From the NCBI GenBank assembly GCA_009885955.1, contig VFJS01000016.1, positions 1-64,000 on the forward strand: DNA of 64,000 nt, in the 5' to 3' direction. Every line of letters begins with the position of its first letter. Position 1 is the stretch's first letter. The DNA comes from Spirochaetia bacterium. Its GTDB lineage: Bacteria > Spirochaetota > UBA4802 > UBA5550. Shown one piece after another: positions 46,018-49,193 of the stretch. A program made the translations under genes and the position numbers. The notes under the pieces are model-generated. The model searched no databases and was not told the origin of the DNA. It worked only from the letters and a program-made list of their open reading frames with translations.

Positions 46018-46422
46018 TTACATATCTATAACTTGTAAAGATGTATTGTCAGCCATTATCGAAAAATCCCTGTCTTTGTGAAGAACGGGCACTTTATAAT
46101 AAATTGCTAAAAATGCGATAATACAATCGTTGCTTTTTCTTACAGTAATGCCTTTTTTTCTCATTGTTCTATATATATCAGCTGATCCAATTGCCAGATC
46201 AATTGGATCGTATTCAAGAATCGGGAAGTCAGTAAGCAATTTTAAAGCAATATTGTAGTCTCTATCCTTTATGAATCCCTGTAAGATTTCCTGTAAAATA
46301 ATTGGACATATGAATACGGGGAAATCTGATTCAATATAGCCCGTTAATATTTTGACTCCTTTATTTTCAATACCATTGAAAAAATCAATCCAGACCGAGG
46401 TATCCACGATCACACCTTTCAT
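46018..46422 (-). CDS. vapC: PIN-domain toxin VapC
   Basis: VapC toxins are Mg-dependent RNases, often cutting tRNA. 134 residues with the PIN acidic residues: Asp7 in VIVDTSVWIDFF, Glu in ILQEILQGF, Asp in VRKSNDCIIAFLA and Asp in LHKDRDFSIMA. The start overlaps the vapB stop by four bases. Both genes look intact, unlike other toxin-antitoxin pairs in this window. Confidence 0.93.
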   Translation of the reverse strand: MKGVIVDTSVWIDFFNGIENKGVKILTGYIESDFPVFICPIILQEILQGFIKDRDYNIALKLLTDFPILEYDPIDLAIGSADIYRTMRKKGITVRKSNDCIIAFLAIYYKVPVLHKDRDFSIMADNTSLQVIDM

Positions 46423-46613
46423 CTGTTTTTTCTCATTTCATCGAGGTTTCCAGCCCAATTTAATTTTCCTTTGTAATCCAGGATTTTTTTTCTGTTGTGG
46501 AGTTTTATTACTTCTTTTAAAGCAAACTCAACAATGCCTTTTTTTGTTTTAATGTTAGTTAACTCCATCGCGGATTTCAATAAGTCATTGTTTATATCAA
46601 TATTTGTTCTCAT
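46419..46613 (-). CDS. vapB: VapB-type antitoxin
   Basis: The frame extends upstream, but the ATG at 46613 has GGGAG six bases before it. 64 residues. MRTNIDINNDLLKSAMELTNIKTKKGIVEFALKEVIKLH has a ribbon-helix-helix pattern that binds DNA and represses the operon. The C-terminal KKILDYKGKLNWAGNLDEM is the toxin-blocking tail that occurs in the VapB family associated with this class of VapC. It overlaps vapC by four bases and is likely to autoregulate the pair. Confidence 0.9.
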   Translation of the reverse strand: MRTNIDINNDLLKSAMELTNIKTKKGIVEFALKEVIKLHNRKKILDYKGKLNWAGNLDEMRKNR

Positions 46614-46828
46614 AATTAAACTCCCTTTATAATACACAAAATTATAGAATAATATACACACAGACAAGTAATTTTTACACAAGCATTAATTTTAATTTTC
46701 CGGGAAGTTTTCTGGCCAGGACAGATTCCGACTTGACATTTATGGACATATGTAAATTTATTGCTGATGATGTGTGATACTTTCGTATTGCTAAATAAAA
46801 AAATATTAAATTTATTTGGAGGAACATA

Positions 46829-47967
46829 ATGAGATCAGCGGTTCAATTATTGAAAAAAGTCTCTCTCTCTCTCTCTCTCTCATACTAATTAGCATTCTAA
46901 CAATAATACCTCTTGGTTGTGATGGAGGAAGCAGTAAGAAGAAAACTGTTACGGAGATAACTGGAGGAACAACCACAGATATATATGTCATTGGATATAG
47001 TATAAATAGTTCTAATGATTGGGTATCTGGGTACTGGAAAAACGGGGTATGGAATACAGCTTCCTCTTCCATTCACGATCTTGAATGTATTGCTGTCTCT
47101 GGAAGTGATGTTTATATTGGCGCAACCGTGTATTATTCTGCTACAAGTACAGTTGGACATCCCGGATACTGGAAGAATGGAGTTTGGAATGTATTGACGC
47201 CTCCAGATCCAACCAAAGATTCAGGTGTTAATGCTTGTACTATTTCAGGGGGTGATGTTTACATCGCTGGTTATAATGTTGCCAATGCTTCTTCATCGTT
47301 AATTGAATATGGTTATTGGAAGAATGGAGTCTGGAATACTGCGACAACCTCCGCACAGGTGCTAGTTAGTGAGATTGCAGTTTCCGGTAGCGATGTTTAT
47401 TTTACTTTAACAAATTACTTTATTGTTCCTAATCCAATTTTTCATGCCGGATACTTTAAAAATGGAGTGTGGAACGAACTGGCTCAAAATTTAGATATTG
47501 CATCGATTGCTGTATCAGGAATTGATGTTTATGTAGCTGGAACTAATGATACATCATTTTACAGTACTAGTACGAGTACTGCAGGCTATTGGAAGAATGG
47601 CGTATGGAACATATTGATACCTCCAGATCCAACTAAAGATTCAGAGGCAATGTCGATTTTTATATCAGGAACTGATGTTTATGTAGCTGGAACTAATGAT
47701 ACATCATTTACCAGTCTTAGTACGAGTACTGCAGGCTATTGGAAGAATGGCGTATGGAACGGACTCACTCTCTTGGATCCGACAAAAGATTCGTCGACCG
47801 ATACAATTTTTGTGTCAGGAACTGATATTTATGTTGGTGGTAATTGCCTGAACAGTTCTGATATATGGGTGGCAGGTTATTGGAAGAATGGGGTGTGGAA
47901 TGGACTGACCCCTCTTGATCCAACAAAAGATTCATATCTTCAATCATTTATAGTAGTAACTCAATAG
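46829..47967 (+). CDS. Phase-variable surface lipoprotein with GYWKNGVWN repeats (out of frame)
   Basis: A good ribosome site (TTTGGAGGAACATA) leads to the ATG at 46829, which reads MRSAVQLLKKVSLSLSLSY then stops at 46886. In the +1-shifted frame, the sequence continues LILISILTIIPLGC (lipobox) and then 360 residues to 47967. The two pieces together make a proper lipoprotein signal peptide, so the gene is split by the (TC)11 tract at 46860-46881. Loss of one TC unit or gain of two would restore the frame. The only other start, a TTG at 46816, lacks a ribosome site and gives an acidic, poor leader. The mature protein has seven units, each with GYWKNGVWN and SGxDVYVAG, as in a beta-propeller. 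Confidence 0.75.
46860..46881 (+). repeat. (TC)11 simple sequence repeat
   Basis: Eleven uninterrupted TC dinucleotides lie within signal-peptide codons, 31 bases from the start codon. Slippage by one unit shifts the reading frame of the downstream lipoprotein. A tract of this length and position is typical of contingency loci. Confidence 0.95.
47520..47762 (+). repeat. Near-identical direct repeat inside the lipoprotein
   Basis: Two units (about 47521-47610 and 47668-47760) share long identical runs such as GATGTTTATGTAGCTGGAAC and TAGTACGAGTACTGCAGGC. The protein repeat is conserved at DNA level, so the number of repeats could change by recombination. Confidence 0.75.
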
Positions 47968-48129
47968 GCATTTTGACTAATCAATAAGATGATCTGAATG
48001 CGGCAGCCGGGTGAGCAGGTTTATGGCTGCCGCATACTCTATTCCCCACCGGTTTTTAATATACCAGTTCTCTGCAGATGTATTAATTATTATCTTGACT
48101 TTTTCATTTATTTATTAGAAATTGATGGA

Positions 48130-48450
48130 ATGGATAATGAAACAAAAGATATAATTCACGGCATTCAATCAATAGTTCGGGAATTTGATAAACAGGGTGA
48201 AGTTATTCTTTATGGTTCGCGGGCCCGTGGTAATGCGGAACCCGATTCCGACTGGGATTTTTTAATTATTTCAAGCCGGGATATTTCTTGGGATGAGGAA
48301 AAAAAAATTCGTTCATCATTATACGGATATGAATTAAAAACTGGAATTATCATGAGCGTAATGATCCGTTCCTGTGAGAGATGGATGGACCCGCGGTCAA
48401 TGATAACCCCTTTTCGCCTTTATGTTGATCGGGAGGGTATTCATTTTTAA
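48130..48450 (+). CDS. MNT-type nucleotidyltransferase antitoxin
   Basis: The frame starts earlier, but the ATG at 48130 begins the usual N-terminus MDNETKDIIHGIQSIV. 106 residues with the minimal nucleotidyltransferase motif GSRARGNAEPDSDWDFL (GS-x10-DxD type). Such proteins modify the partner HEPN toxin by AMPylation and so neutralise it. The stop overlaps the start of the HEPN remnant (TAATG). It appears intact, but the partner is not. Confidence 0.85.
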   Translation: MDNETKDIIHGIQSIVREFDKQGEVILYGSRARGNAEPDSDWDFLIISSRDISWDEEKKIRSSLYGYELKTGIIMSVMIRSCERWMDPRSMITPFRLYVDREGIHF

Positions 48451-48592
48451 TGGAACCACTTGAAGATATTGTCCGCTATCGCCTGGAAAGATCAAAAGAA
48501 ACAATGATTTTTTTATTATGGAATCGGTAGAGATAAATGATCTATTGCCCCGTGCTGAAGAATTTATCTCTGAAATTGCTCGTCTGGTATAA
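48450..48592 (+). pseudogene. HEPN toxin gene with an internal deletion
   Basis: From the ATG at 48450 the frame begins MEPLEDIVRYRLERSKETM, the usual HEPN start, then breaks into a stop at 48528-48530. In another frame, from 48519, the sequence reads MESVEINDLLPRAEEFISE, the usual end of these proteins, up to a stop at 48590-48592. A normal gene has about 390 bases; about 250 are missing from the middle, including the RxxxxH active site. Both ends survive. Confidence 0.8.
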
Positions 48593-48641
48593 TTGCTGCA
48601 TATATTTTATTTGATATAACTTTATAAATTATCAATTTTAC

Positions 48642-48669
48642 TTGACATTCCTCATACTTTGTAGATAAT
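48642..48669 (+). promoter_or_regulatory. Candidate promoter of hicBA
   Basis: TTGACA (48642-48647) and GATAAT (48664-48669), with a spacer of 16 bases. It is about 85 bases before hicB. Confidence 0.5.
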
Positions 48670-48753
48670 TTAAATATGAAATGATTTTGATATTGCTTAG
48701 ACGCTGAATTCATTAGTATTGTGGTAAAAAAAAGAAAAAAGGATTAAATTTAA

Positions 48754-48975
48754 ATGGAATATTATTATAAAATTATAATTGAGCCCCAGGAAGAAGGCGG
48801 TTATACCGCGTATGTTCCAAAACTTCCCGGCTGCGTTTCGGAAGGGGATACCTATGACATGGCGCTCGTGAATATTAAAGAAGCCCTGGAGCTTTATCTT
48901 GAAACGATGAAAGAACGTAATAATATAATCATTAAAGATGATATTCACATTTCAGAAGTCTGCATAAAAATATGA
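48754..48975 (+). CDS. hicB: HicB-family antitoxin
   Basis: 73 residues. EPQEEGGYTAYVPKLPGCVSEGDTYDMALVNIKEALELYLETM is the HicB RNase-H-like fold with the usual order of EEGG, YVPxLPGC and G-D-T. This is the short form with no C-terminal HTH. It neutralises HicA. AAGGA precedes the ATG at suitable distance. It overlaps hicA by four bases. Confidence 0.93.
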   Translation: MEYYYKIIIEPQEEGGYTAYVPKLPGCVSEGDTYDMALVNIKEALELYLETMKERNNIIIKDDIHISEVCIKI

Positions 48976-49193
48976 GTAAAGATCTTCCATCACTGAAACC
49001 GGGTGATGTAATCCGTATGTTAAAAAAAATCGGCTTTGAATTTTATCGGCAAAAGGGGAGCCATAAAATATATGTAAAAGACGGCTATATGGTTATTGTG
49101 CCTGAACATAACAAAGATTTAAAGAAAGGAACGCTTTTCAACATTATAAAAGGAACTGGATTATCTGTTGATGAATTTTTAAAATTTAAATAA
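48972..49193 (+). CDS. hicA: HicA-family mRNA interferase
   Basis: 73 residues with the double-stranded-RNA-binding-like fold: LPSLKPGDVIRMLKKIGFEFYRQKGSHKIYVKDGYMVIVPEHNKDLKKGTLFNIIKGTGLSVDEF. The catalytic His lies in GSHKIY. HicA cuts mRNA. The order hicB before hicA is the less common one but is known. Its stop is 17 bases from the convergent acyltransferase stop. Both partners look complete. Confidence 0.93.
   Translation: MSKDLPSLKPGDVIRMLKKIGFEFYRQKGSHKIYVKDGYMVIVPEHNKDLKKGTLFNIIKGTGLSVDEFLKFK

Follow-up and report, generated by a model that had tools for sequence, protein, structure and literature searches.

A TC-repeat tract in the signal peptide of a spirochaete lipoprotein gene as a probable phase-variation switch

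Results

The lipoprotein gene and its TC tract

The window (the whole 64,000-nucleotide stretch analyzed) is contig 25 of a 4.77-Mb Spirochaetia assembly that is 98% complete. The genome encodes FlaA, the sheath protein of the spirochaete periplasmic flagellum, as do 19 out of 19 relatives searched and none of 14 control genomes; on this basis we place it in the phylum Spirochaetota. The gene under study encodes a putative lipoprotein, and its features are collected in Table 1. It lies between toxin-antitoxin modules: VapBC (46018-46613, minus strand) is on one side, and a nucleotidyltransferase (48130-48450) with an apparently broken HEPN-type partner and HicBA (48754-49193) are on the other (whole region, 46018-49193).

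Table 1. Coordinates of the features of the lipoprotein locus and loci of GA tracts in other genomes
Feature	Position	Strand	Basis or remark
Shine-Dalgarno (SD) sequence GGAGG	46818-46822	+	6 nt 5′ of ATG 46829
ATG and 19-codon frame MRSAVQLLKKVSLSLSLSY*, OFF in the assembly	46829-46888	+	TAA 46886-46888
(TC)11 tract, signal-peptide h-region, (SL)n in any frame	46860-46881	+	Sequence, TRF
Remaining h-region and lipobox-like PLGC, product frame	46882-46920	+	Cys codon 46918-46920; PLGC 46909-46920
Lipoprotein frame as mechanically listed, TTG start without SD, 383 codons	46816-47967	+	ORF list
Predicted seven-bladed beta-propeller, seven GY(W/F)KNGVWN repeats, first at 47029	46972-47964	+	AlphaFold, Foldseek, repeat-unit dN/dS
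Shared 5′ cassette: CTTGAC element, GTGTGATACTT-CGTATTGC block, RBS region	46733-46828	+	Own-genome DNA search, three-locus alignment
GA-tract loci at or just before lipoprotein starts, other spirochaete families	L112, L125, L126, L130, L141, L144, L146		

From its ATG the gene reads a basic leader, MRSAVQLLKK, into a perfect (TC)11 tract (TRF, 100% match) and closes after 19 codons, letter for letter as a first-pass annotation of the sequence had described it; tract lengths here and below come from a draft assembly of 117 contigs and may be off by one unit. The lipoprotein frame is a different one. It is intact from TTG 46816 to the TAG at 47965-47967 and reads ILISILTIIPLGC, followed by ∼348 residues with seven GY(W/F)KNGVWN units. 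The annotation had counted seven GYWKNGVWN repeats: the number stands, although only six are exact and one reads GYFKNGVWN. Its arithmetic for joining the two halves, one TC fewer or two more, is right. By the genetic code alone the tract is read as (Ser-Leu)n in all frames and so yields a passable hydrophobic core at any phase.

The only start in frame with the lipoprotein, TTG 46816, overlaps the SD sequence of the ATG, has no SD sequence upstream of it, and would begin a leader of net charge -3, much as the annotation had noted (no ribosome site, acidic leader); judged by these features, its use appears unlikely. A promoter scan gave no more matches than in shuffled sequence. Under an order-3 Markov model trained on 174 kb of the same genome, (TC)11 is expected 5e-7 times per genome. 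The locus thus has a perfect tandem repeat, far longer than chance would give, within a coding frame and with a unit that is not a multiple of three; changes in unit number connect or disconnect an SD sequence and ATG with an intact gene.

The signal peptide of the window protein has an n-region of charge +3 and an h-region. The lipobox PLGC named in the annotation is present, but with Pro at -3 it misses the strict PROSITE motif PS51257, which nine out of 11 homologues pass. Pfam returned no family above cut-off, and a sequence search found no solved structure of a relative. AlphaFold on nine homologues gives 28 strands, four for each of the seven repeats (pLDDT 83.6, pTM 0.84), and so predicts a seven-bladed beta-propeller, which supports the propeller-like fold first proposed. 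The best Foldseek matches in the PDB are kelch domains, designed kelch-like propellers, and a Ralstonia lectin, with query TM scores of only 0.37-0.45 and blade numbers that may differ. Between repeat units dN/dS is mostly 0.1-0.5 and at most 0.7, in the youngest pair; many pairs approach saturation in dS. Values below 1 indicate that the encoded protein has been in use, and the downstream gene bears a signal of past purifying selection.

TC tracts across the source genome

The genome contains 14 (TC)≥7 tracts of 8 to 19 units, where the Markov model expects 0.03. A general excess of simple repeats was rejected as their cause, since the genome has no (CA)≥7 tract and no poly-G run above 10. 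Each of the 14 tracts is on the sense strand relative to the gene that follows (P about 1e-4). A start codon, in most cases with a good SD sequence, precedes 11 of them by 10-52 nt, for which a rough uniform model gives P about 2e-15. These 11 sit between a mostly basic n-region and the remaining hydrophobic core of a signal peptide. The source genome therefore carries several loci of this type with envelope products, 11 in signal peptides and three upstream of genes.

In nine of the 11 signal-peptide loci, the best SD sequence belongs to a start whose frame differs from that of the envelope protein; the latter frame is intact and 127-750 codons long. One of the two in-frame loci, C9:30704, encodes a YARHG lipoprotein behind a TC14 tract; its ON form, MKKLSLSLSLSLSVFTLLVLSTFILSC, is a canonical lipoprotein signal peptide and shows what the TC tract is for. 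The other, C74:102308, encodes just 92 residues of a truncated paralogue. Two in-frame loci out of 11 are compatible with free phase, which would give about one-third (P = 0.23 for so few), and unlike what is expected of constantly expressed genes. The products comprise YARHG (two), Big_2, SH3_3 (two, in tandem), PEGA, NHL/DUF5018, CsgG-like, and F5/8-C-like proteins (one full, one truncated), and the window propeller. A lipobox-like Cys is present in 10 of the 11, and three meet the strict PROSITE motif; lipoboxes of spirochaetes are looser than that motif.

The remaining three tracts lie outside signal peptides. Two of them, TC11 and TC19 in similar leaders (L064:4986-5007 and L072:5001-5038, reverse-complement coordinates), precede CsgG-like paralogues at distances of 208 and 301 bp; the third, TC9 (L071), precedes a KaiC-like ATPase gene by 205 bp. 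L064 also carries (TTGC)5. TTGACA boxes ∼150 bp before two of the three suggest, from sequence, that these tracts would lie in a transcribed leader.

Loss of mismatch repair was rejected as an explanation for the tracts because both MutS1 and MutS2 are present. There is thus no obvious mutator background, and slippage would need to occur despite these proteins, as it does in other phase-variable bacteria that have repair.

A leader shared by three unrelated genes

A DNA search of the source genome matched the window leader to those of the Big_2 gene (C16, 78% identity) and the PEGA gene (C42, 79%) and, the tracts themselves aside, to nothing else. In an alignment of the three loci, similarity covers ∼100 bp upstream, the RBS, the n-region, and the tract and fades past the h-region. 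The proteins behind these leaders are unrelated, which indicates that some members of the set arose when a leader was copied to a position before another gene.

Relatives and other Spirochaetota

Of 98 Spirochaetota genomes, 19 (the source included) encode a homologue of the window protein, as does one Bacteroidales MAG; the protein is single copy in its own genome, with no paralogues. The first-pass annotation had proposed a search of this family for SSR tracts at the same place. Homologues with a full N-terminus have ordinary, nonrepetitive leaders where the tract sits in the window protein, a contrast that we count in favor of phase variation. Their identity to it is only 23%-44%, so they are too distant to stand in for close relatives, in which a conserved nonrepetitive leader would speak against phase variation. 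The ordinary leaders of the homologues suggest that the tract was acquired in the source lineage. We found no close relative of the locus for comparison of tract length in the genome, phylum, and viral collections, and no congener of the source genome among the relatives or in the species collection. Relative G007 carries a perfect (GTAT)21 tract of 84 bp (L024:524) near a fragmentary member of this repeat-protein family.

Any (TC/GA)≥9 tract is found in only 22 of 393 Spirochaetota genomes, and an SD sequence with ATG and (TC)≥7 in five: the source, G016, G022, G148, and G056. The tracts of G016, G022 (TC7), and G148 (TC9) are in lipoprotein leaders, all out of frame, the latter two as single instances of the same layout; that of G056 is not in a lipoprotein. 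In G016 there is an extra stop between tract and lipobox, which indicates that some such genes decay. TC tracts of G009, G010, G013, and G014, from the same family, were set aside for want of a recognizable lipoprotein start or because they lie at a contig end. Many (TC/GA)≥9 tracts occur in G115 (L114, L115), which has 182 overlapping matches in 1.5 Mb, and in G192 (L129), G162 (L116, L117), and G275 (L118-L120); their contexts differ at the one to three sites sampled.

In four further genomes (G280, G340, G266, and G143) we see the mirror image, the tract in its opposite-strand reading: (GA)n encodes ERERER before the hydrophobic core of long lipoproteins. Sampling 420 kb of G280, a single contig of 2,227,296 bp, yielded three more GA tracts, each right after an ATG that is out of frame with a lipoprotein of 726-810 codons, these lipoproteins forming one family; several GA-tract genes of G280 belong to a paralogous family with 700-800 codons. 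An in-frame Met downstream of the G280 tracts means that these may act from a leader.

Discussion

The locus is very probably, on the sequence evidence, an SSR contingency locus that varies in phase by slipped-strand mispairing. Ribosomes would start at ATG 46829 and read a basic n-region and then the TC tract within the hydrophobic core of a lipoprotein signal peptide. Mispairing during replication would alter the number of TC units, and only one of the three length phases would put the lipobox and the seven-bladed propeller in frame with the start. At the 11 units of the assembly the frame closes after 19 codons, and the cell would make no lipoprotein (OFF). With at least 11 such genes, each switching at random, the cell would have an envelope whose protein composition varies combinatorially. 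The tract, the frames, the SD sequence, the intact downstream gene, and the recurrence of this architecture across the genome are read directly from the assembly. From them we infer that the tract slips at some rate, that ON and OFF cells would be mixed, that the product would be lipidated and exposed at the surface, and that switching may bring a benefit, e.g., against phage, predators, or a host.

Tract lengths are known from a draft assembly only, and an assembly or sequencing error in a gene that is always in frame is a very unlikely alternative. Such an error may change the phase, but it would not produce the 14 tracts, all on the sense strand and 11 at the same place in signal peptides; besides, (TC)11 is 22 bp and fits inside one short read, and if the tracts were constant all 11 loci should be in frame. 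Decay would account for several features: the majority of loci are OFF, C74:102308 is truncated, and G016 has its stop after the tract. We nevertheless consider it slightly less probable still that these are pseudogenes, dispensable by now, in which neutral slippage expanded the tracts. The downstream frames of the nine OFF loci are otherwise intact, the repeat units of the window gene carry a purifying signal, and neutral expansion would be expected to affect other units, the other strand, and sites outside signal peptides as well.

The least likely of the alternatives is that protein is made at any phase, by initiation at TTG 46816 or by frameshifting on the tract. The TTG frame is indeed open across the tract, but that start occupies the SD sequence of the ATG, has none of its own, and encodes an acidic leader wrong for export; an in-frame start is missing from most out-of-frame siblings, and where one exists it lacks an SD sequence. 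Against slipped-strand phase variation we counted the three upstream tracts outside signal peptides, the 92-residue product of C74:102308, the presence of MutS1 and MutS2, and the G016 stop. We prefer it because each alternative covers a part of the data and fails on the genome-wide pattern. That pattern, 11 tracts of the same unit, strand, and position in largely unrelated envelope proteins, strongly supports the original proposal that a tract within the signal peptide slips.

CT-repeat outer membrane protein genes of Helicobacter pylori include sabA, babB, and hopZ. In oipA of the same species, CT repeats lie in the signal-peptide coding region, and slipped-strand changes in their number switch the gene ON and OFF (PMC10564699). 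The window gene has its CT repeat in the same region and would work alike, but its lipobox-bearing predicted propeller matches no Pfam family above cut-off and is not a Hop-family beta-barrel; whereas the H. pylori genes encode paralogous outer membrane proteins of a pathogen, those found here encode mostly lipoproteins from at least seven unrelated families in an uncharacterized spirochaete. In the opa genes of Neisseria, about 11 copies per genome, the part that encodes the leader peptide contains CTCTT repeats, which put the gene in or out of frame (PMC3745409). The 11 signal-peptide tracts described here likewise are short repeats in leader-coding sequence; in contrast to the opa pentamer in one paralogous adhesin family, the unit is a dinucleotide, the products are unrelated, and some share a duplicated leader cassette. 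The window gene is not an opa-family member.

Among spirochaetes, Treponema pallidum has homopolymeric G tracts, often near promoters. The source organism resembles it in being a spirochaete with SSR-type loci and differs in having TC tracts in signal peptides and no long poly-G. A recent review names T. pallidum as a species with SSR phase variation and describes the combinatorial ON/OFF lipoprotein sets Vlp and Vpma of Mycoplasma as recombination-based shuffling (PMC11868660). The set found here would likewise turn lipoproteins ON and OFF, through a dinucleotide tract in the signal peptide and not by recombination. In the open-licence literature we found no report of SSR phase variation in spirochaetes other than T. 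pallidum, uncultivated ones included.

More tentatively, and possible rather than probable, promoter, RBS, basic n-region, and TC tract may form a transferable leader module that is copied in front of unrelated lipoproteins and would make any exported protein phase variable, with a mirror-image (GA)n/ERERER solution at or before the lipoprotein n-region in other spirochaete lineages. If this is true, nonmodel Spirochaetota would repeatedly have adopted dinucleotide tracts to control lipoprotein export.

The tract loci offer a ready panel in which switching could be counted in metagenome reads, culture-free. Most known repertoires of phase-variable proteins belong to a small number of host-adapted pathogens. 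A set of 11 or more envelope proteins under TC control in an uncharacterized spirochaete would show convergent evolution of randomly switching envelopes outside such pathogens, by the same signal-peptide trick as in H. pylori and Neisseria.
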